DNA of 35,211 bases, from assembly GCA_955652675.1 (NCBI GenBank), contig CATPBP010000011.1:1-35211 (forward strand), read 5' to 3'. The stretch is from Candidatus Dormiibacterota bacterium (GTDB lineage Bacteria; Chloroflexota; Dormibacteria; Dormibacterales; Dormibacteraceae). The notes below the pieces were generated by a model. That model was not told where the DNA came from, did no database searches, and worked only from the letters and a program-made list of their open reading frames with translations. This document shows, one piece after another, positions 661-10,246 of the stretch (position 1 is its first letter; every line of letters starts with the position of its first letter). Made by a program: the position numbers and the translations under genes.

Positions 661-891
661 TCAGGCCCTCCTGCCCGACTGGATGGCCGCCGCCACCCGC
701 TCAAGGCGCAGAGCCACGACCGGACAGGCGGCGACCGCTTGCCTTGCGTGCTCTCGCAAATGCTCAGGTACGGGACCGGGGGCCAGCAGTGGGTACCCCC
801 AGTCGTCGAGCTCGATCAGCTCGGGGAGCAACTCGGCGCAGAGACCGTGGCCGTCGCAGCGGATCCGGTCGATCCTGATCTCATCCGCCAT
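661..891 (-). CDS. [3Fe-4S]-type ferredoxin
   Basis: Small electron carrier of 76 residues. Three cysteines, C12 and C18 in RCDGHGLCAE and C56 in AACPVV, match the C-x5-C...CP pattern of single-cluster [3Fe-4S] ferredoxins, as does the PELIELDDWGYP segment between them. I chose the ATG at 891 because it directly follows the TGA of the upstream NuoF-like gene (TGAGATG) and has GAAAGG about 10 bases before it; a start at 921 would run 29 bases into that gene. It probably exchanges electrons with the NuoF-like protein encoded just upstream. The ferredoxin family is clear from sequence; the partner is inferred from gene order. Confidence 0.9.
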   Translation of the reverse strand: MADEIRIDRIRCDGHGLCAELLPELIELDDWGYPLLAPGPVPEHLREHARQAVAACPVVALRLERVAAAIQSGRRA

Positions 892-892
892 C

Positions 893-2128
893 TCAAGCCG
901 CCTTTCGCTGCGGCGCTCCATGCTGGCAGGCGCCCCGCTGGTGGAGGCTGAACTCTTCGGCGAAAACCTCTAGCGCGCTGCGCATGAGGCCGGCCGCGCC
1001 GTCCGGGTGCCGGCAGCCACCGCGTCCTGGGAGCTGCGCCGACCAGCGGCTGATCCGGACCAGGTCTTCGGGCGCGGGCGTGCCGCCGGCCAGGCGTCCG
1101 GTTGCCTCGGCGATCGCGCGCAGTCCGAAGAGGCAGGGCCCGCACTGGCGGGCGCTGGCCGCGGCCATGTAGCTGATGATGTCCGCGGTCGCGGCTACGC
1201 CGCAAACGGCGGCTGGAAGGAAGGCGACGACGCCGCAGCCGAACGCGACGCCCCGAGCGCGCAGGGCGGCAGGGTCGAGCGACAGCGCGAGCGCCTGCTC
1301 ACTCGGCAGCCAGGCGCCGAAGTAGCCTCCGATCAGCGCCGCCTGGACGTGCGCCTGGAGTCCCCCAGCCGCGGCGACCAACTCGCTCACCGTCGTGCCC
1401 AGCGCTATCTCGTGCACCCCGGGACGGGCGACGGGACCGGACACGGTGACGAGGGCAGGTCCGGCTGCCGGACGGCGCCCGGCCTCGCGGTACCAGGCAT
1501 CGCCGAAGCGCGCGACGAGCGCCGAAAGGGCGAGACTCTCCACGTTCTGGACGAGAGTCGGGCGGCCACCGACGCCTTGCTCGAAGGGCCGAGGAGGTGT
1601 GGAGGTGGGGAGCGCCACGCCCTTGTTCAGGTAGCGGACCGCGGCCGTCGCCTCGCCGCTCACGTATCCGGAAGGCGCCACCACGACGCCGGCTCTTCGC
1701 ATCACCTCGCCGCCGCGTTCTGTGATTGCGCGGCGCAGGGAGGCAGATGCCGCAGTGTGCTCTTGCCCGACATAGAGCGCTATGCGCTCCGCTCCGACCG
1801 CCTCGGCAGCCAGCAGCGCTCCGTCGAGGACCAGGTGGGGCCGCGCGGCCATCAGCGTCCGGTCCTTCATGCTCAGAAGTTCGCCCTCCGCTCCGTTCGC
1901 CAGGACCACCGCACGCCCTCCGGATCGCTCGGCCACCGACCGCCACTTGCGGCCCACCGGGAATCCGGCGCCGCCTCGGCCCTGGAGCCCGCTGGCTTCC
2001 AGCATCGGGATCAGCCCCTGGGCCTCCGAACCGACGGGGAGCCGGCCCAGGCGCGCCTCGTGGGAGGCCAGACCCTCGGCGCCCGCCGCCGGCGGCGGCC
2101 CGTCCAGCAGACCGACTGGAGATCTCAC
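893..2128 (-). CDS. NuoF-like flavin/iron-sulfur oxidoreductase
   Basis: About 411 residues, related to the FMN- and NADH-binding 51 kDa subunit of complex I. Visible signatures are GRGGAGFPVGRKW (glycine-rich nucleotide site), NGAEGELLSMKDR, SGYVSGEATAAVRYLNKG, and near the C-terminus SARQCGPCLFG followed by GRGGCRHPDG for a cluster. The first cysteine of the usual C-G-x-C-x-P-C motif is Ala here, leaving three standard Cys ligands plus one more in HQRGACQ. There is no NuoE or NuoG neighbour, so this is a stand-alone paralogue that probably passes electrons between a nicotinamide or ferredoxin pool and the adjacent haem membrane protein. The GTG at 2128 overlaps the upstream stop as GTGA, with AAGG upstream; the open frame runs further 5-prime but only through the preceding gene. 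Confidence 0.85.
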   Translation of the reverse strand: MRSPVGLLDGPPPAAGAEGLASHEARLGRLPVGSEAQGLIPMLEASGLQGRGGAGFPVGRKWRSVAERSGGRAVVLANGAEGELLSMKDRTLMAARPHLVLDGALLAAEAVGAERIALYVGQEHTAASASLRRAITERGGEVMRRAGVVVAPSGYVSGEATAAVRYLNKGVALPTSTPPRPFEQGVGGRPTLVQNVESLALSALVARFGDAWYREAGRRPAAGPALVTVSGPVARPGVHEIALGTTVSELVAAAGGLQAHVQAALIGGYFGAWLPSEQALALSLDPAALRARGVAFGCGVVAFLPAAVCGVAATADIISYMAAASARQCGPCLFGLRAIAEATGRLAGGTPAPEDLVRISRWSAQLPGRGGCRHPDGAAGLMRSALEVFAEEFSLHQRGACQHGAPQRKAA

Positions 2129-2748
2129 CACTTCGATGCCTTGTCGGACCTTGTGCCGCTCACCCCAGACCAGGCCGGGGCCGGGGAAGCAGGACGCGGT
2201 GTAATCGGGGCCGGAGGAGATTGCGGACGCCGGCTTCCGATCAGCCGTGCCGCCACTGCCGTCAGGACCATTGCGACGCAGACGAGGTAGATGACCAGCA
2301 TCCAGGAGCGGGTGTCGGTGCCGGTGCCGAGGCTGTGCGCCATGGCCACTGGCCAGCATGCGTAGGCAACCCAATGGACCAGACGCCAGGTCCGCGGGCC
2401 GATGGCTCGGCGCAGCAGGCTGGTGAGCAGCAGGGCGACAAAGAGGTCCACGGCAACGACGCCCAGCCCGAGCCAGAAGGTCCGGTAGTACGACGAGAAG
2501 GGAACCAGCGCAGCGGCCCAGCCGAGCGAGGTGTAGGGATCAACCACCGCCGTGACAATGTGCAGGGCAAGGAAGACAACAGAGAGCAGCGCCAGGTTGC
2601 GATGCAGACCGACGGTGAGGAAACGGGGCCAGGCGGTCGCCCGCCAGCGCAGCGCCGAGAGGATGCCGAGCGCCACAACGCTGCTGAGAAGGATCAAGGA
2701 GACAGCTCCCGCCCCCCGGGTGGCGTACCAGAGGATCGAACTCGTCAT
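2125..2748 (-). CDS. ferric-reductase-like transmembrane haem protein
   Basis: Integral membrane protein of 207 residues with about six hydrophobic segments. Two histidine pairs with the spacing of ferric-reductase-like domains are seen: H49/H63 (GLHRNLALL...ALHIV) and H125/H138 (RLVHWVAYA...AMAHSL). Each pair likely ligates one b-type haem, one near each membrane face. It lacks the FAD/NADPH domain of full ferric reductases, so the neighbouring NuoF-like protein and ferredoxin are the likely cytosolic electron donors. The start overlaps the FMN-transferase stop (ATGA) and its stop overlaps the next gene, so expression is coupled. The C-terminal 35 residues are Pro/Ser-rich and probably disordered. 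The terminal acceptor is unknown. Confidence 0.88.
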   Translation of the reverse strand: MTSSILWYATRGAGAVSLILLSSVVALGILSALRWRATAWPRFLTVGLHRNLALLSVVFLALHIVTAVVDPYTSLGWAAALVPFSSYYRTFWLGLGVVAVDLFVALLLTSLLRRAIGPRTWRLVHWVAYACWPVAMAHSLGTGTDTRSWMLVIYLVCVAMVLTAVAARLIGSRRPQSPPAPITPRPASPAPAWSGVSGTRSDKASKW

Positions 2749-3740
2749 CTCCGCAAACCCCCCGGCTCTTCCATGGCGTCATCATCCGCCGCGCCAGCTT
2801 GCGAAGTCGTTACCGGCTCGGCCGGTCGGTCCGCCGGCCAGCGGCACGAGCGGATGACGCTTCCATCGATTGCGACGAGGCGGGCGTCGAGGCCGTTTGC
2901 CTCCAGCCATGGGAGAGCCCTGGTGCCGAGCACGATCGCGGCGGTGGCGGCAATGTTCGCGTCCAGGCAGCTGGCTGCGTAGACGCTCACCGTGCGCCAG
3001 GGACTCGCCGCCGGCAGCCCGGTGGCCGGGTCCACGATGTGGTGGTATAGCTGCTCACCCCGCCGCCAGCGACGAACGGTGATGCTGGAGGTGGCCAAGC
3101 CGCCGGCGCTGATGCTGACCGTCTGGCCCTGGCTGCTGGGTGGCAGGGCGGAATCTTCAGCCGCCAGAACCCGCCAGCCGCCCTCCGGCGCCCCTCCGGC
3201 GACGGCGATGTCGCCACCCAGGCCGACCAGGACGCCGCCGCTTCCGGCTGCGGCCATCGCCTCGGCAGCAGCCAGGTCGGCTGCCAGCGCCTTGCCGGTG
3301 GAGCCCAGATCAAGCTCCACGCCGCGCGGGACACTAATACTCTGCAAGGCAGGCAAGAGCTGCACCACCTGCCAGCCGGGAATCCGCTCGGCGGGCACCA
3401 GCGGGCCTCCGCCCTGGTCGATGAGTGAGAAATCCTTGTCGTAACCGATCAGGCGGAGTGTCGCACCCACGGTCGGATCGACGGCTCCTCCTGTCAACCG
3501 GCTTGCCCGAAGGGCCTCGGTGACGGCGCGATAGAGCAGCGGGCTGACCGGGACCGGCTTTCCACTCTGCCGATTGAGGCGGCTCAGCTCGCTGTCCTCG
3601 CGAAACCGGCTGTAGCACGCGTCCACCTCGGCCAGCACCCGAGCCACGGCCCTGGCAGCGGGCCCGGCCCCCTCGGGCTGGGTCGTGAGCACCAGGACGC
3701 CGGTGCCCAGAGCCCGCCAGGCCCGCTGCCTGACGGCCAT
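2745..3740 (-). CDS. apbE: FAD:protein FMN transferase, ApbE family
   Basis: Transfers FMN from FAD onto a Ser/Thr of a target protein at or outside the membrane. Of 331 residues, family marks are DPTVG (89-93), LDLGSTGKALAAD (144-155), GLGGDIAV (173-180), SISAGGLATSS (209-219), HHIVDPATG (233-241) and the Mg-binding DANIAATA (260-267). I chose the ATG at 3740 because a strong AGGAGG sits before it and it overlaps the upstream stop (TGATG); the open frame extends to 4088 only through that gene. No signal peptide or lipobox is visible, so it may act from the cytosolic side or be exported by an unrecognised signal. No FMN-bind-domain gene is present in the operon, which leaves its substrate open. 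Confidence 0.92.
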   Translation of the reverse strand: MAVRQRAWRALGTGVLVLTTQPEGAGPAARAVARVLAEVDACYSRFREDSELSRLNRQSGKPVPVSPLLYRAVTEALRASRLTGGAVDPTVGATLRLIGYDKDFSLIDQGGGPLVPAERIPGWQVVQLLPALQSISVPRGVELDLGSTGKALAADLAAAEAMAAAGSGGVLVGLGGDIAVAGGAPEGGWRVLAAEDSALPPSSQGQTVSISAGGLATSSITVRRWRRGEQLYHHIVDPATGLPAASPWRTVSVYAASCLDANIAATAAIVLGTRALPWLEANGLDARLVAIDGSVIRSCRWPADRPAEPVTTSQAGAADDDAMEEPGGLRR

Positions 3741-4024
3741 CAGGAACCTCCTGAGGTGGCCTGGCCGCTGCCCGACGAGGCGCTCGAAGGCGCCTGCGGG
3801 GAGGCCTGCACGGCGCCGCTGCTCGCCCCGCTGGTGGTTGACGTTGAGGACTTGCTGCTCGAGGCGCTCGCGCTCGCGGTGGTCCCAGGGTGGGTCGCCG
3901 CAGCCGCCACGCCGAGGCCGGCGGTGGCCAGGACGGCTGCCACGCCGGCGCTGACTGTGAGGCGGCGAAGCATGCCGAGGGCGCGGTCGCGTCCTCGGGG
4001 TGAGGTCGTAGGTGTCTGTGTCAT
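3740..4024 (-). CDS. small Ser/Thr-rich single-pass membrane protein, possible FMN carrier
   Basis: Unrecognised 94-residue protein and first gene of the electron-transfer operon. After a short basic N-terminus there is one hydrophobic segment (about residues 23-43, LTVSAGVAAVLATAGLGVAA) and then a 50-residue low-complexity tail of Ser, Thr, Ala, Gly and Gln that should lie outside the cell. The tail contains SGAS (65-68), which resembles the [ST]GA[ST] core at which ApbE enzymes attach FMN. This is suggestive only, because such tetrapeptides are easily found in Ser-rich sequence. The start at 4024 has GGAG close upstream; an in-frame GTG at 4048 is less likely because the repeated leader lies there. 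It may be the flavinylated wire or an anchor for the complex (inference). Confidence 0.65.
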   Translation of the reverse strand: MTQTPTTSPRGRDRALGMLRRLTVSAGVAAVLATAGLGVAAAATHPGTTASASASSSKSSTSTTSGASSGAVQASPQAPSSASSGSGQATSGGS

Positions 4025-4065
4025 GGCTCCGATCCTGCCGCCGGCCACCTTTCGAGTTGGTTACC
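4025..4065 (-). promoter_or_regulatory. conserved leader, copy A, of the electron-transfer operon
   Basis: Read on the minus strand, this segment has GTAACCAACTCGAAAGGTGG, then a short variable piece, then AGGATCGG just before the ATG at 4024. The same block occurs before the genes at 7582 and 8893 and, more weakly, at 10294-10331. The GTAAyCA and GAAAGGTGGCC parts are the most constant. It lies between the hairpin at 4126-4157 and the first gene, where promoter and control sites must be. No standard sigma-70 hexamers could be assigned, so the motif may be an alternative-sigma promoter or a regulator site. Confidence 0.5.
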
Positions 4066-4125
4066 GGTCCCAGCTCCACAAGCTGCACAGAGGAAGGGCC
4101 AGCCCCACATTGAGGAGGGGAGACA

Positions 4126-4177: not shown

Positions 4178-6193
4178 TCAGGAGGCGGCTGCCCCCTGCA
4201 AGTCGTAGACGGTGACGCCGCTGACGCCGGCGATGGTGACGGCCTTGCCGTGCGCCTCGGCCCAGCTGACGACCTGCGCCACGGTGCCGCCGCGGTCCCC
4301 GCCGGCCCGGGCTCCGCCCCCACTCTGAACGACCAGATAGCGAACCTTGCCCTGGGCAACCAGCGACTGGAACTGGCTGAGGGTCGGCGTCGGGTCGCTG
4401 CCCGAGAAGCCTCCCATGGCCATGACCGGCTGTCCGCTGGTCAGCTCCAGCCCGCCGGCGTTCATCGAACCCTCCACCGCGGCGATCCAGCTCGCCTGAC
4501 CGCGATGGGCGAGCAGGTACTTCACCAGCGCCGGACTGGCGCTGACCTGCTGCCCCCGGTTGCCGAACGCTCCCCCAGGCGGCGTACCGCCGGAGGGCAC
4601 GCCGGCTGATCCAGCCCGCGGCCCAGGGAAGCCCCGGACGCCCTCAGGCGGCTGGAAGCCGCCGGCCCCTCCCGAGCCGCCACTCCCCACAGCGGTCACG
4701 GCCGGACCGGCGCTGGTTATGGCGCCGGAATGGGTCGTCAGGACTGTGTCGACTGTGTATGCGGTGGGGCCCGCAAGGACGGCGACCAGACCGGCCGTGA
4801 TGGCGGCGAGGGCCAGCCGGCGCGAGAGGGGCATGAGGAGGAGCAGGGCGGACAGGAGGCTGACGGCCAGGAGCGCATAGCGCAGCCAGCCGAGGAAATC
4901 CGGCGTTCTGCCCAGCAGGACGAAGGCCCAGACGCCGGTCGCTGCGAGCCCGGCCGGCAGCAGCCAGCGCGTCAGGGAGCTCCGACGCAGCCGCCAGAGA
5001 TCGACCAGCCCCATTCCCACCAGCGCCCCGACGGCGGGCGCCAGCGCCACCGTGTAGTAGGGATGGAAGATGCCGGTCATGAAGCTGAAGACTGCGACGG
5101 TCACCATGGCCCATCCGCCCCAGAGCAGATAGCCGGCGCGGTTGAGGTCGGTGCGCACGGCTCGCCACCTGAGGGCGAGGCCAACGACCAGGGCCAGTCC
5201 GGCCAGCGGCAGCAGCCAGCTGACCTGGCCGCCATTCTCGGCATTGAAGAGCCGGCCCAGGCCGGCAGCTCCACCGAAGCCGAAGCCGCCTCCGGCTCCG
5301 CCGGGACCTGAGCCGCCGAAGATCCGGCCCAGCCCGTTGTAACCGAGGATCAGGTTCCAGATCGAGTTGTTGGTGCTGCCGTCGATGTAGGGCCGGTCCG
5401 CTGCGGGGATCAGCATCACGGCCAGCGGCCACCAGCCGGCGGTGACGAGGAGAGCGATCCCGCCGCCGACCAGGCCGAGGATCCGGCGGCCGAGCCGGAG
5501 CGGCGCGGCCAACAGGTAGACGACCGCGAAGGCTGGCAGGACCAAGAGGGCCTGCAGCATCTTGGTGTTGAAGGCGAAGCCGAGGAGGACGCCGGTGGCA
5601 ACAAGCCAGCGGACACTACCGCCCTCGACTGCTCGGAGCGTCGTGTACGCCGACGCCACCAGGAGCAGGGTCAAGATGCCGTCCGGCTGGTTGTAGCGGA
5701 ACATGAGCGCGGCCACCGGAGTGAGGGCAAGCACAAGGCCGGCGATCAGTCCGGCAGCCGCCCCCGCATGGCGCCGTACGGTGACCGCCGTGAGACCGAC
5801 AGCGGCCACGCCAGCGAGAGCCTCCGGGACCAGCATGCTCCAAGAGCTGAATCCGAAGATGCGGGCGGACAGCTCCATCACCCAGAGCGCCACAGGCGGT
5901 TTGTCCACGGTGACGAAGCTCGCCGCGTCGAAGGAGCCGAAGAAGAAGGCCTTCCAGCTCTGGGCCCCGCTCATGACCGCGGCCGCGTAGAAGGTGTTGG
6001 CCATGCCCTCGCGGCCCAGGTCCCATAGGTAGAGCAGAGCGCTGAAAGCGAGCAGGCCGAGGAGCGCCGGCAACTCCCAGGCGGGGGTAGACGCGCGGCT
6101 GCCTACCAGCCGTTGCCAGAGTGGGAAGGCTGCCGCCCGCGCCTGGGGGAAGGCGCCCGAGGGCCCTTCACGTGTCCAATCGGTAGTTCTCAT
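4178..6193 (-). CDS. GT39/YkcB-like membrane glycosyltransferase
   Basis: GT-C fold transferase of 671 residues that would move a sugar from a polyprenyl-phosphate donor onto an acceptor on the outer face of the membrane. About a dozen hydrophobic helices lie in roughly residues 40-480. YkcB-type signatures include GMANTFYAAAVMSG, AFFFGSFDAASFVTVDKPP, LMFRYNQPDG and FNTKMLQALLVLPAFA. A Gly-rich loop (GGSGPGGAGGGFGFGGAAG) and a second Gly/Pro-rich linker lead to a soluble C-terminal domain of about 120 residues (ALVKYLLAHRG...VMAMGGFSGSDPTP...VRYLVVQSGGG) typical of this family. The ATG is 4 bases after the GtrA stop, with GAGGTGA overlapping that stop. It is the last gene of the three-gene operon and needs the donor made by the GT2 enzyme. 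The sugar and acceptor cannot be read from sequence. Confidence 0.88.
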   Translation of the reverse strand: MRTTDWTREGPSGAFPQARAAAFPLWQRLVGSRASTPAWELPALLGLLAFSALLYLWDLGREGMANTFYAAAVMSGAQSWKAFFFGSFDAASFVTVDKPPVALWVMELSARIFGFSSWSMLVPEALAGVAAVGLTAVTVRRHAGAAAGLIAGLVLALTPVAALMFRYNQPDGILTLLLVASAYTTLRAVEGGSVRWLVATGVLLGFAFNTKMLQALLVLPAFAVVYLLAAPLRLGRRILGLVGGGIALLVTAGWWPLAVMLIPAADRPYIDGSTNNSIWNLILGYNGLGRIFGGSGPGGAGGGFGFGGAAGLGRLFNAENGGQVSWLLPLAGLALVVGLALRWRAVRTDLNRAGYLLWGGWAMVTVAVFSFMTGIFHPYYTVALAPAVGALVGMGLVDLWRLRRSSLTRWLLPAGLAATGVWAFVLLGRTPDFLGWLRYALLAVSLLSALLLLMPLSRRLALAAITAGLVAVLAGPTAYTVDTVLTTHSGAITSAGPAVTAVGSGGSGGAGGFQPPEGVRGFPGPRAGSAGVPSGGTPPGGAFGNRGQQVSASPALVKYLLAHRGQASWIAAVEGSMNAGGLELTSGQPVMAMGGFSGSDPTPTLSQFQSLVAQGKVRYLVVQSGGGARAGGDRGGTVAQVVSWAEAHGKAVTIAGVSGVTVYDLQGAAAS

Positions 6194-6197
6194 GACG

Positions 6198-6653
6198 TCA
6201 CCTCACTGGTTCAAATGGGTTTGAGGAAGACGCGCCTGCTCGTGTGAACACCCAGGCGCGAAGCAGTGCGAAGCGGAGAGCGGTCGCCGCGGCGTTCGCT
6301 ACGACCAGCACGGAAAGCTCAAGGATCCGGCCGGGATGGGACGAGACCAGACGCAGGAGCTCCAGGGCGCCGGACGTCAGCGCCAGGCCAAGGAGGAACA
6401 CGGCCAGGCCCTGGAGTTGGTGGCGTGCAACGCCCTCGCGGCCGCCGATGCCGAACGTGAACCGGCGATTGGCGGCCGTGTTAGCCACCGCGGTGACAAG
6501 CAGAGCCAACGCGTTGGCAAACTGCGCGCTCAGGGCGCCTCGGAGCAGCGTGTAGAGCGCGAGGTAGGCGGCTGTGCTGCAGAGCCCGATCAGGACGAAG
6601 CAGGTGAGCTGCCGGACCGTCCCGGCCCTACGGATCGAGAGCAGGACTTTCAA
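6198..6653 (-). CDS. GtrA-family membrane protein, putative lipid-sugar flippase
   Basis: Four-helix membrane protein of 151 residues. The GtrA pattern is visible: RQLTCFVLIGLCSTAAYLALY, then FANALALLVTAVANTAANRRFTFG, two more helices and the C-terminal RFALLRAWVF. GtrA proteins are thought to move polyprenyl-phosphate-linked sugars across the membrane, here from the GT2 enzyme to the GT39 transferase. I chose TTG at 6653, which overlaps the GT2 stop as TTGA and has GAGGAGG just upstream. The open frame continues to 6848 but only within the GT2 gene. Function comes from the family and the classic neighbourhood. Confidence 0.87.
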   Translation of the reverse strand: MKVLLSIRRAGTVRQLTCFVLIGLCSTAAYLALYTLLRGALSAQFANALALLVTAVANTAANRRFTFGIGGREGVARHQLQGLAVFLLGLALTSGALELLRLVSSHPGRILELSVLVVANAAATALRFALLRAWVFTRAGASSSNPFEPVR

Positions 6654-7582
6654 GGTTCCTCCTCGGCTGTCGTCGGGCGGATGTGCCAGGACTGGCGCCG
6701 GACCCGCCAGAGGCCCCGCAGGTCCTCCAGCGCCGTGCGTGGGATGTCGACCCGACTGTCGAGGTCCTCGATCCAGTCGACGGGCACCTCGAAGATCCGG
6801 TAGCCCAGGCGTTCGGCGAGCAGCAGGAGCTCGGTGTCGAAGAACCATGACTCATCCCGCACGAGCGGGAGCAGACGCTGAGCCGCGCTCCTGGTCATCG
6901 CCTTGAAGCCGCACTGGGCATCCGAGAACCCGACTCGAAAGGTTAGGTGGACCAGAGCGTTGTAGCCGCGGGAAAGGATCTCCCGGCGGGGCTGGCGTCG
7001 GATCCTCGAGCCCGGGAGCAGCCGGGACCCGATCGCCAGCTCGCTGTGGCCGCTCAGCAGCGGCGCCAGAAGGGGCAGGAAGCACCTCAGGTTGGTCGAA
7101 AGGTCGACATCCATGTAGCTGACGACGTCGGCCTCGCTCGCCAGCCAGGCGGTGCGCAGGGCGAGACCTCGTCCTTTCTGATCGAGGTGAAGAGCGGTGA
7201 CCCCGGGAAGCAAGTCCGAGAGCGCCTGGGCGATCTCCCACGTGGCGTCAGTGCTGGCGTTGTCGGCGATGACGATGAGCCAGGGGATGGGAAGGTGGTC
7301 CGTCAGATAGGCCTGCAGTTTGAGGATGCTGCTCTCCAGCTGCGCCTCCTCGTTGTAGGCGGGGATCACCACGTCGACCGAGGCAAGTCTGGCCGAATGT
7401 CCCCTGCCCACCGCACTGCCGGCGCGCTGGTCGGCACTCGCCTCCGAGGCGACCTGCAGCGTCCACATGGGACCGGGGCTCGGCACGGCTGCGGGCGGTG
7501 ACGGAAGGACGCTGACGCCACGGCTATCGGGGAGATCGGCCGGCGGGAACAGGGTGGTCGGGGTAGCTGCTGATCTAGTCAT
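6650..7582 (-). CDS. GT2 glycosyltransferase, DPM1/GtrB-like, with an unusual N-terminal extension
   Basis: Cytosolic enzyme of 310 residues that likely transfers a sugar from a nucleotide donor to undecaprenyl phosphate. The GT-A core starts near residue 69: VDVVIPAYNEEAQLESS, ADNASTDAT, the DxD site in YMDVDLSTN, and GFSDAQCGFKAMTRSAAQRLLP. No C-terminal membrane helices follow, as in DPM1-like members. The first 60 residues are Pro/Ala/Ser-rich and outside the family fold; the first 29 codons match, without gaps, the start of the protease gene at 8893. I chose the ATG at 7582; an in-frame GTG at 7606 is excluded because the same leader in the second copy has a 1-base shift that breaks that frame. 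First gene of the operon. Confidence 0.88.
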   Translation of the reverse strand: MTRSAATPTTLFPPADLPDSRGVSVLPSPPAAVPSPGPMWTLQVASEASADQRAGSAVGRGHSARLASVDVVIPAYNEEAQLESSILKLQAYLTDHLPIPWLIVIADNASTDATWEIAQALSDLLPGVTALHLDQKGRGLALRTAWLASEADVVSYMDVDLSTNLRCFLPLLAPLLSGHSELAIGSRLLPGSRIRRQPRREILSRGYNALVHLTFRVGFSDAQCGFKAMTRSAAQRLLPLVRDESWFFDTELLLLAERLGYRIFEVPVDWIEDLDSRVDIPRTALEDLRGLWRVRRQSWHIRPTTAEEEP

Positions 7583-7622
7583 GACCCCGATCCTCGATCT
7601 GGCCACCTTTCGGACTGGTTAC
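7496..7622 (-). repeat. duplicated 5-prime module, copy B (leader plus first 29 codons)
   Basis: This 127-base block contains the leader and the first 29 codons of the GT2 gene. It matches 8807-8932 in the same orientation. In the leader, 26 consecutive bases beginning GAAAGGTGGCCAGATC are identical between the copies. In the coding part, TCCTTCCGTCACCGC is identical, and the peptides share M1, SAAT (4-7), L11, PP (13-14), G22 and LPSP (26-29). A single-base length difference just before the ATG shows that the leader itself is not conserved as coding sequence on this strand. Confidence 0.8.
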
Positions 7623-7738
7623 AGGCGCGGTGTCTTGCGGGAGCTGGTCAGCCTGGGAGGATCAAACGTGATAGCGCTTGCACATGCTGCGGGGGGAGTT
7701 CGACGGTGGGCGCAGACGGCTGACGACCGTGGAGCTTG

Positions 7739-8893
7739 TCAACCGTTGGAATGCTTCGCGTGCCCCCTTCTGGCACGCCTGTGGCCACCCAGTTCCCCGG
7801 GACTTGCTCGTGCGCTCGTCTTTGTCCTGGCCGATGAGCGTCGAGCAAATGGCACTCCATCCCGGCTACACCCTCCCCGGCGTACGCTCCGCTCCAGCCG
7901 AGCCGAGCTCGAGCCCGGAGTGGGAGCGCCGATGCGCCAGAGATGACCGACAGTCGCTAACCCAATCGCGGAGATGACAGCCGAGCCGCCAATGTCCAAT
8001 GCCCAGCCGGTGAGTTGTGTCCCGCTGCCGTGCAGTAGCCACTGCGCTGTCGCCATCGCGATCCCGTCCAGCGAGTCCCAGGTGGCGTGTAGCGCCACGA
8101 CGAGGGCATAGGTGCCGGCCACAAGCAACGCCGCGTGCAGCCGCCGCCGGGAGCCGAGGCCAGCGAACAGGACCCCGCCCAGAATGCCGGTCCAAAGACC
8201 GTGCCCCAGCGGTGCAGTCGCGGCCCGCAGGACCTCGGTCCCGAGCAGGTTGGTCAGCGACCACCCAGTGGTGAATGCGTAGAGCGCGTATCCGCTACTC
8301 TCCAGGGCTGCGAATCCGAAACCAACCGCCGCGCCGAGCAGAATCCCATCGCGGACGGCATAGCGCTGGAGTCCGACAGCGAAGCCGACCAGCACCGCGA
8401 GCTTCGCGGCTTCCTCGAACACACCCACCTCGACGTAGTTGGAGGTCGAGCTCAGGAACCAGTACTCGATCAGGGCCGCTGCCATGATGCCCAGGACACC
8501 ACCCGCCATGAAGGCCGAGATGACCCGTTCCCCAGTGAGTGGCGTTGCGCGGGTCCGGTCGAACGCCCAGATCATGATTGCCATGGGCACCAGGAAGGTG
8601 CCGATAACGATCACGGTCGGAACCAGTATGTAATTCCAAGTCGCGACCAGGACCCCGACGGAGATCAGCCAGAGCAGAATCCCGGTGGTGAGGAATCTGA
8701 GCCAGCGTGGAAATCTCGCATTCACAGTTGGCGAATTCAGCGGCAGCCAATTGTGGACGATCGCGTGCTTTATCCCTGAGCGTCCGTGTCCCAAGGCCGT
8801 TTGGAGCGGTGACGGAAGGATGGTGATGCCCGGGTAATTCTTTGACTCGGGCGGTGGGGACAGGTTGCTAACGGTGGCTGCTGAGCTAGCCAT
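7739..8893 (-). CDS. PrsW-family intramembrane glutamic-type protease
   Basis: Membrane protein of 384 residues with about eight or nine hydrophobic helices. PrsW-family hallmarks are EEAAK (160-164) in VFEEAAKLAVLVG, E198 in FAALESSGYALY, H231 in APLGHGLWTGILGG and H269 in ALHATWDSLDG. B. subtilis PrsW cleaves an anti-sigma factor, but this family is broad and no anti-sigma gene is nearby. The first 45 residues belong to the duplicated 5-prime module, and the last 60 or so (from about APTPGSSSARLE) are Arg/Ser/Ala-rich with no family match, so both ends look acquired or drifting. I chose the ATG at 8893, equivalent to the GT2 start, rather than the frame opening at 8965. It appears monocistronic, with 156 bases to the next gene. 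Confidence 0.85.
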   Translation of the reverse strand: MASSAATVSNLSPPPESKNYPGITILPSPLQTALGHGRSGIKHAIVHNWLPLNSPTVNARFPRWLRFLTTGILLWLISVGVLVATWNYILVPTVIVIGTFLVPMAIMIWAFDRTRATPLTGERVISAFMAGGVLGIMAAALIEYWFLSSTSNYVEVGVFEEAAKLAVLVGFAVGLQRYAVRDGILLGAAVGFGFAALESSGYALYAFTTGWSLTNLLGTEVLRAATAPLGHGLWTGILGGVLFAGLGSRRRLHAALLVAGTYALVVALHATWDSLDGIAMATAQWLLHGSGTQLTGWALDIGGSAVISAIGLATVGHLWRIGAPTPGSSSARLERSVRRGGCSRDGVPFARRSSARTKTSARASPGELGGHRRARRGHAKHSNG

Positions 8894-8932
8894 GGCCCGA
8901 TCCTCGATCTGGCCACCTTTCAAGCTGATTAC
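8807..8932 (-). repeat. duplicated 5-prime module, copy C (leader plus first 29 codons)
   Basis: This is the 126-base counterpart of 7496-7622, here joined to the PrsW-like gene. The minus-strand leader reads GTAATCAGCTTGAAAGGTGG and then the same block as copy B up to the ATG, but one base shorter. The encoded peptide begins MASSAAT and reaches ITILPSP at residue 29, against MTRSAAT and VSVLPSP in copy B. Its outer edge (8930-8932) is exactly where a decayed MarR reading frame begins on the plus strand. Confidence 0.78.
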
Positions 8933-9234
8933 GCCCAGCTCGCTCACATCGCCACTTTCCGCCATAGATTGCGGGGATGGTCGCGGATTGCACCGGCCGC
9001 AGCGGGGTGACCCAATCGGTCGATGGCCTCGAGTAGCTCGGACTCGTGTCGCCTAGTGATGATCGGCGCCTCGTGCTCACCGCCATCGCGCCACCGGGAC
9101 TTGCCCTCTTGGCGATCGGGCATCAGGTCATTGACGCCCTGGCCCCCCGGTTCATCACGGAGCCGCTCACTGAGTCTCAAGCAGTGGCGTTGGCCGCCGC
9201 ACTGGCCAAGGTCGCAGACGGCCAGGCCATGTGA
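8930..9234 (+). pseudogene. MarR-family regulator, decayed remnant
   Basis: Pieces of a MarR-type repressor lie in two plus-strand frames. One frame gives YAQLAHIATFRHRL and then RIAPAAAG, ending in a stop. The next frame gives GVTQSVDGLE, a TAG stop, then LGLVSPSDDRRLVLTAIAPP, LALLAIGHQVIDALAP, and a normal-looking end at TGA 9232-9234. GVTQ, D-LE-GLV, the wing SPSDDRR and the PLT helix are MarR landmarks. The N-terminal helix is missing, with a frameshift and an in-frame stop as well. The remnant abuts module copy C, divergent from the protease gene, and may be the relic of a divergently transcribed regulator. Confidence 0.68.
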
Positions 9235-9514
9235 CGTCGAACCGTATTGACCTGCGCTCCAGGTCGGATCGTTCGACCCACAGCGCCACCGTCCACGAGT
9301 TTAGTGATCCCCCTCTTGATCGCCCATGCCGCCCTGGCGAAGCCTGGAGCCAACCTCTCAGCTGCGTCCCACGACCCGCCTCCGTCAGCGGTGGCCGTGT
9401 ACTGCACGTACCGGGCCGCCGCTGACTATTCGTTGTACATGCCTACTTCAGCTGCTGACCGTCAACAGCTTCTCACACACCTCGCCGAGAAGGTCGGATG
9501 GTGGTTCGTGTGTT
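9235..9514. other. intergenic stretch with no recognisable gene
   Basis: Short open frames occur on both strands, but none shows a family motif or a credible ribosome site, and neither strand gives a convincing transposase remnant. It lies between the MarR pseudogene and the small membrane-protein gene and is probably decayed sequence. Confidence 0.5.
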
Positions 9515-9706
9515 TCATCGAGCGGCTGTGCTCCGTTCCGCGCCCGGGCGATGGACTCCCGCGGACACGGGGCGGGACGGCCGGACCGGAACCGGGAGGT
9601 AGGCTGGATGCAACCGATCTCCGAGACTGGCGACTAGCCACCAGGCAAACCACAGGACGTAGGCGATCGGTACCAGGGCCAGCAGGACGAAAAAGCTCAC
9701 CAACAT
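9515..9706 (-). CDS. small single-pass membrane protein of unknown function
   Basis: Unrecognised 63-residue protein. It opens directly with one hydrophobic helix rich in aromatics (MLVSFFVLLALVPIAYVLWF, continuing to about residue 28), followed by a Pro/Arg-rich tail. The strongest evidence that it is real is the near-ideal ribosome site AAGGAGGTGA placed 4 bases before the ATG. It follows the four-helix membrane protein at 9770-10246 by 63 bases on the same strand, so the two may be co-transcribed. No function can be assigned. Confidence 0.6.
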   Translation of the reverse strand: MLVSFFVLLALVPIAYVLWFAWWLVASLGDRLHPAYLPVPVRPSRPVSAGVHRPGAERSTAAR

Positions 9707-9769
9707 GACTCACCTCCTTGGATGAAATGGTCAGAAACGAGTTCACTGATCCTTTTTCCTGAGTGACAT

Positions 9770-10246
9770 CTATGCCTCACGTGGGCGGAAGCCGTAGCGG
9801 CCCAGCAGGAAGACCGCGATACCTGCGGCCACCACGTGCAGGGACATCAGGCCCAGGATTTCCGCCAGGGTGGTGCCGTAGCTGCGCTCGCTGGCATAGA
9901 GGAGCAGGTCAGGCACCCAGGAGATCACCAGTGCGATCGTCGCCACCGCGGTGAAGGCCCGAACCGGATCAGGGCGGAGGCGAGCCAGCACCGCGAAGAC
10001 GATGACTGCACCGGCCACGCCGATAACGGTCAGCGGGGCCACGCTGGCCGTTTGCAGGGACCTGAACGTGGCGGGGACCTGGAGCAGGCTGACCAGCGCC
10101 TGCGCGACCAGGACGTTGGCGATCGTGCTCGCGACCACCGCCCCGACGCCGACGACCAATAGGCGCCCCCAGCGCACGCCAGGCCAGCGGCCGGCACGCC
10201 GGACGTCTAGGTGCGCCTTTCGAATCTCGACTCTCTCGGTTGCCAT
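9770..10246 (-). CDS. four-helix membrane protein, DUF6069-like
   Basis: Protein of 158 residues with a basic cytosolic N-terminus (about 28 residues) and four hydrophobic helices: LLVVGVGAVVASTIANVLVA, VAPLTVIGVAGAVIVFAVLA, FTAVATIALVISWVPDLLL and LMSLHVVAAGIAVFLLGRYG. The layout and the ...AFTAVATIALVISWVPD... stretch recall the DUF6069 family of actinobacterial membrane proteins; this assignment is from memory. I chose the ATG at 10246 because AGGAG lies 8 bases upstream; a GTG at 10300 would start inside the upstream hairpin. No function is known. Confidence 0.72.
   Translation of the reverse strand: MATERVEIRKAHLDVRRAGRWPGVRWGRLLVVGVGAVVASTIANVLVAQALVSLLQVPATFRSLQTASVAPLTVIGVAGAVIVFAVLARLRPDPVRAFTAVATIALVISWVPDLLLYASERSYGTTLAEILGLMSLHVVAAGIAVFLLGRYGFRPREA

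Follow-up and report, generated by a model that had tools for sequence, protein, structure and literature searches.

A leader common to a flavinylation operon, a GT2 glycosyltransferase gene and a PrsW protease gene in a Dormibacteraceae genome, and the candidate local regulon it suggests

Why should two genes of unrelated families begin with nearly the same leader and a similar first stretch of codons? The question is raised by a contig of Candidatus Dormiibacterota that we analysed over its positions 1 to 35,211 (CATPBP010000011.1; this whole 35,211-nt stretch is called the window). Here a GT2 glycosyltransferase gene and the ORF of a PrsW-family intramembrane protease carry a common 5' block (Table 1). 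An earlier note on this DNA had described 26 identical leader bases before both genes, a one-base length change just 5' of the ATG and a gap-free similar N-terminus (SAAT at residues 4-7, PP at 13-14, LPSP at 26-29). It took the block for a duplicated, perhaps mobile or amplified 5' cassette that gives different genes the same control and the same N-terminal tag.

The block shared by the GT2 and PrsW genes

Alignment reproduces what the earlier note had described: the 26 bases read GAAAGGTGGCCAGATCGAGGATCGGG on the minus strand, the length change and the gap-free peptide similarity are present, and the starts assigned to GT2 (7582) and PrsW (8893) are correct, with both Pfam families confirmed. 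The block measures 128 bp (leader plus about 29 codons) and its two copies, on the minus strand, are 75-78% identical, a match with E=1.8e-19 in BLAST against the 4.2-Mb genome and E=8.8e-20 in self-comparison of the window. A 19-mer core occurs twice in the window versus 0.03 occurrences expected by chance. The duplication of a 5' segment thus stands, as homologous leaders beyond chance precede non-homologous genes. Between the two copies, 5 of 42 leader positions are substituted versus 26 of 87 in the coding part (Fisher p=0.028).

Table 1. Features of the window discussed in the text, in order of position.
Feature	Positions	Strand	Basis or remark
OmpR/PhoB-type response regulator, cut by contig end	1..654	minus	PF00072 + PF00486
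Ferredoxin	661..921	minus	PF13459
NuoF-like NADH-binding protein (long-ORF start; real start probably near 2130)	893..2374	minus	PF01512, PF10589
Ferric-reductase-like (MsrQ-like) membrane protein	2125..2748	minus	PF01794 E=1e-7
ApbE flavin transferase; start overlaps small-gene stop	2745..3741	minus	PF02424 E=5e-51
Small protein, 94 aa, one apparent membrane segment, Ser/Thr-rich tail; first operon gene	3740..4024	minus	
Leader copy 1, GTAAC...ATG before the small membrane-protein gene of the ApbE operon	4022..4064	minus	
PMT_2 / YkcB-like mannosyltransferase	4178..6193	minus	PF13231, PF24878
GtrA-like membrane protein (true start probably further downstream)	6198..6848	minus	PF04138
GT2 glycosyltransferase, first gene of GT2-GtrA-PMT	6650..7582	minus	PF00535 E=2e-20
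Shared block, GT2 copy	7495-7622	minus	alignment, BLAST
GT2 first ~29 codons, common to PrsW	7495..7582	minus	70% DNA identity, codon-position bias absent
Leader copy 2, GTAAC...ATG before GT2	7580..7622	minus	alignment; profile R1 E=2e-13
PrsW-family intramembrane protease ORF	7739..8893	minus	PF13367 E=8e-19
In-frame GTG, codon 57 of PrsW ORF, likely native PrsW start	8723..8725	minus	homologue alignment
Shared block, PrsW copy	8806-8932	minus	alignment, BLAST
PrsW ORF first ~29 codons, common to GT2	8806..8893	minus	alignment, BLAST
Leader copy 3, GTAAT...ATG before PrsW, one base shorter 5' of ATG	8891..8932	minus	

The N-terminal extension had been called unusual for both families. This is right for PrsW, whose homologues mostly align from about query residue 54-62 onward, and the closest of them (G019, 63% identical) has its ATG at the place matching the in-frame GTG of the window. 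Most homologues begin near residue 54-62, where this GTG sits; the 29 codons have therefore been added to PrsW, which may still be translated from the old GTG start. For GT2 the claim is only half true, as its closest relatives, in G004 and G016, also have about 49 residues before the catalytic core, of unrelated sequence; aligned with them, the GT2 N-terminus of the window scores 27 versus 24+-6 for shuffles. GT2 as the ancestral owner of the peptide found no support, as the GT2 N-termini of related genera are without detectable similarity to it; the copying between GT2 and PrsW may have gone either way. Upstream of PrsW, about 800 bp (8965-9770) contain no recognisable gene and are possibly a decayed region beside the duplication; a longer ORF found there (9247-9708+) has no Pfam match.

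The third leader and the operon that carries it

The earlier note had proposed a search for copies of the block before other genes. This yielded one extra copy only, at 4022-4064 on the minus strand (genome search match 4022-4076(-)), which that note did not contain. It consists of the leader alone, without the peptide, with 77% identity over 48 nt; it reads GTAACCAACTCGAAAGGTGGCC...AGGATCGGAGCCATGAC and runs to the ATG at position 4024, the start of a 94-residue protein. The three leaders lie within 5 kb on one strand, at an ATG distance equal to within one base, and theirs are the only places in the 4.2 Mb genome that fit the pattern GTAACCA-N4-GAAAGGTGG with at most one mismatch.

The 94-residue protein opens a minus-strand operon that continues with ApbE, an MsrQ-like protein, a NuoF-like protein, a ferredoxin and an OmpR/PhoB-type response regulator. 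ApbE and PF01794 occur in one cluster, which is the criterion for an MsrQ-like flavinylation operon, and the gene order is conserved in relatives. A gene for an FMN-binding-domain substrate was not found in the ApbE operon, which has instead the small protein, without a match in the Pfam search. It is possible that this protein is an unrecognised flavinylation substrate. Its tail ends SGSG(Q/H)AT(S/T)GGS, conserved in three species.

A sequence-only profile (R1) made from the three window leaders was run over 42 family genomes, the window's genus being represented by this genome alone. Beyond the window copies, the best full-length matches were G016:C39:8546-8590 (E=1.7e-4) and G004:C27:28672-28716 (E=0.003), in two species of another genus; the G004 match is by itself weak after correction for 42 genomes, and its strength is its orthologous place. 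Both leaders stop precisely at the start codon (ATG) of a 113-residue protein, the orthologue of the window small protein (alignment score 182 versus 55+-8 for shuffles), which is followed in kept order by ApbE, MsrQ-like, NuoF-like, response regulator and histidine kinase genes. The response regulator of the window is 85-86% identical to that of these two operons and its position is distal in all three; in G004 the histidine kinase follows it. Between the genera, the leader is 65-67% identical and the coding start 66-68%, and the DNA just upstream falls to 46-47%, the background level. As the leader matches of the relatives reach to the start of the orthologous small gene, in the same operon, the flavinylation operon is the likely ancestral owner; copy 1 would most likely be the original and the GT2 and PrsW copies derived from it.

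In G004 and G016 the GT2 gene is situated elsewhere, not adjoining the operon, and has a different, single-copy leader, which was not retrieved by the three-leader model. This sequence, GGGAGGTGGTCAGGCGGCAGTGAGCCAGGAGCAATG (L115:6640-6725 and L116), might be a strongly diverged leader; against the window small-gene leader it scores 15, the best of 1000 shuffles reaching 14. A second profile from all five leaders, run over 101 genomes, gave no further convincing copy, the remaining matches starting at E=0.007. The count is therefore three leaders in this genome, one each in two relatives and none convincing in 98 other genomes. A pattern match in G008 (L122:1501-1530), where GTAACCACCTCGAAAGGCGTCC and then CGTTT stand 51 bp ahead of the gene for an ECF sigma factor, resembles the upstream half of the leader and was set aside, being at the chance level of a reversed-pattern control.

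Common to the five leaders are GTAAY-A-N4-GAAAGGTG and, beyond a stretch that varies, AGGAT-GG and the ATG; the distances from GTAAC to GAAAG and from GAAAG to AGGAT are the same in each. In the upstream half, GTAAC and GAAAG are seen by eye to lie 11 bp apart. GAGGA, 8 nt 5' of the ATG, is at a suitable position for a Shine-Dalgarno sequence, and similar words are found at a like distance before other starts in the same genome. By consensus, no sigma-70-type promoter was found in the leader. Three to five leaders do not suffice to tell promoter constraint from that of an operator or of ribosome binding.

Proposed shared control, a probable passenger peptide and the competing explanations

The most direct reading of a common N-terminus would be a functional tag, 29 residues long, that gives GT2 and PrsW equal localisation or turnover. 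The frame is indeed open and indel-free in both copies, but after that many substitutions it would have stayed open anyway with a chance of 62%. Moreover, the differences between the two genes over the first 29 codons are distributed 9/9/8 over codon positions 1/2/3, and the residue identity, 13 of 29, is at the 13.9 expected for as many random substitutions without selection. A peptide search with a 67-residue query over 61 genomes found no other copies, and the GT2 peptide query retrieves even the PrsW copy only at E=0.2. With no signal of selection, and with the peptide missing from the third leader copy, the tag advanced in the earlier note is not borne out and we regard it as very improbable. 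The shared peptide looks like a passenger that moved along with the start region. The case is also a caution that a common N-terminal peptide can be hitch-hiking start-region DNA and not a tag.

The mobile or amplified cassette fared no better. A small promoter-spreading repeat element, for example, would agree with multiple copies before unrelated genes; however, the three copies are confined to 5 kb, and no dispersed copies at non-orthologous places came up when the genome and up to 100 relatives were searched by DNA, by pattern and by profile. The relatives hold one copy, always at the orthologous gene, and terminal repeats were not seen, so that we give this explanation hardly any credence. 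Control might also be exerted after transcription, by a structured 5' UTR in which a hairpin UGGCC...GGYCA encloses the Shine-Dalgarno and the AUG and governs translation. The GT2 and PrsW leaders both fold in this way and a C/U change keeps the pair, but the folding energy does not go beyond shuffles in two of the three copies (z=0.8, -1.6, -0.25), the third copy favours another fold, in relatives the stem is broken, GGCC being replaced by GAGG, and there is no Rfam match. We find such a hairpin improbable, if less so than a tag.

A neutral local duplication deserves more weight, even though we consider it rather unlikely. Unequal recombination would have copied the 5' end of one gene while PrsW and GT2 were being inserted and rearranged beside the operon, and the copies would give a usable start without specific co-regulation and would now be decaying. 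This agrees with the lack of constraint in the peptide part, the confinement of the copies to 5 kb of one genome, the in-frame GTG that PrsW retains at its native start position, and the GT2 of G004 and G016 lying apart from the operon. Against it, divergence is lower in the leader than in the coding part beside it, the segment is conserved across genera before the operon, and the two internal spacings are the same in every leader copy.

The joint explanation that we prefer, with slightly better than even confidence, is that the control and start segment of the flavinylation operon was copied locally to GT2 and PrsW, putting them under shared control, with the peptide as a passenger. The earlier idea of the same control for different genes survives in part, as the third copy and those of the other genus argue for a functional cis-element; the direction of copying, the co-expression and the identity of the regulator are what we infer. 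The segment of about 43-45 nt, GTAAC-N6-GAAAGGTG...AGGAT...ATG, would be the native 5' cis-regulatory and translation-start element of the operon. In this genome the leader would have been copied locally to the neighbouring GT2-GtrA-PMT unit, and the leader plus the first ~29 codons between GT2 and PrsW, in either order relative to the other copying. Three units would then answer to a single control element, making up a local regulon. The upstream half of the leader (GTAAC, GAAAG, 11-bp period) would be a candidate core promoter or binding site that works when the OmpR-type response regulator encoded in the operon is active, GAGGA would serve as the Shine-Dalgarno, and the peptide would have travelled along with no specific job. 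An 11-bp period is typical of OmpR-family binding sites.

The link between regulator and leader is putative, since sister families have regulator orthologues (70-78% identical) in genomes where no leader is detected; also, the co-occurrence of leader and regulator is partly trivial, as both are in one operon. Elsewhere, GT2-GtrA-PMT operons begin with a related OmpR-type two-component pair at about 40 actinobacterial loci, and in four genomes of a sister family FerrRed-NuoF-GT2-ApbE clusters are headed by another OmpR-type pair. As both neighbourhoods sit with such two-component systems elsewhere, a common regulator is plausible. The actinobacterial loci (L130-L206, in about 40 genomes, Streptosporangiales and Catenulispora) have the order response regulator-histidine kinase-GT2-GtrA-PMT. 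Additionally, in the sister family (L247-L250; G072, G055, G091, G093) GT2 lies within RR-HK-FerrRed-NuoF-GT2-ApbE, an independent link of GT2 with flavinylation. A wider proposal, possible but on balance doubtful, is that of a regulon growing stepwise, in which an operon with a response regulator, serving extracytosolic electron transfer by flavins, copied its promoter-to-start module onto neighbouring envelope genes, namely the glycosyltransferase operon and the protease, the leader being a local regulon tag that links surface glycosylation to flavin-based electron transfer.

Relation to known systems

Promoters re-used through local duplication (regulatory-region recruitment, 'mobile promoters') are familiar, and the window resembles such cases in having the same short upstream segment before unrelated genes. 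It differs in that the copies are local only and include the start codon, one pair comprising also the first 29 codons, and in that a second genus allows the ancestral owner to be named. What is new here is the putative element conserved across genera and the candidate three-unit regulon, and not the kind of event.

Meheust et al. 2021 (PMC8238504) counted 1797 MsrQ-like flavinylation clusters, of which 31 have NuoF. The operon of the window is like these NuoF-carrying clusters (PMC8238504) in combining ApbE, a PF01794 membrane protein and a NuoF-like protein. Unlike MsrQ-like clusters, it has the small Pfam-less protein in place of the usual FMN-binding-domain gene, it includes a response regulator and a ferredoxin, and its leader is common to GT2-GtrA-PMT and PrsW.

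With the two-component-linked operons of Streptosporangiales and Catenulispora, the window shares the order GT2, GtrA, PMT_2 and an OmpR-type regulator nearby. In contrast to them, its regulator sits distally in the adjacent ApbE operon, and what ties it to GT2 is the leader that both units have in common. If the preferred explanation is true, this would be a regulon that grows by copying a promoter-start module to an adjacent gene, with the donor identified from another genus. Furthermore, it would predict a functional link, in uncultured bacteria, among a flavinylation/ferric-reductase-like operon, a GT2-GtrA-PMT glycosylation operon and a PrsW protease.
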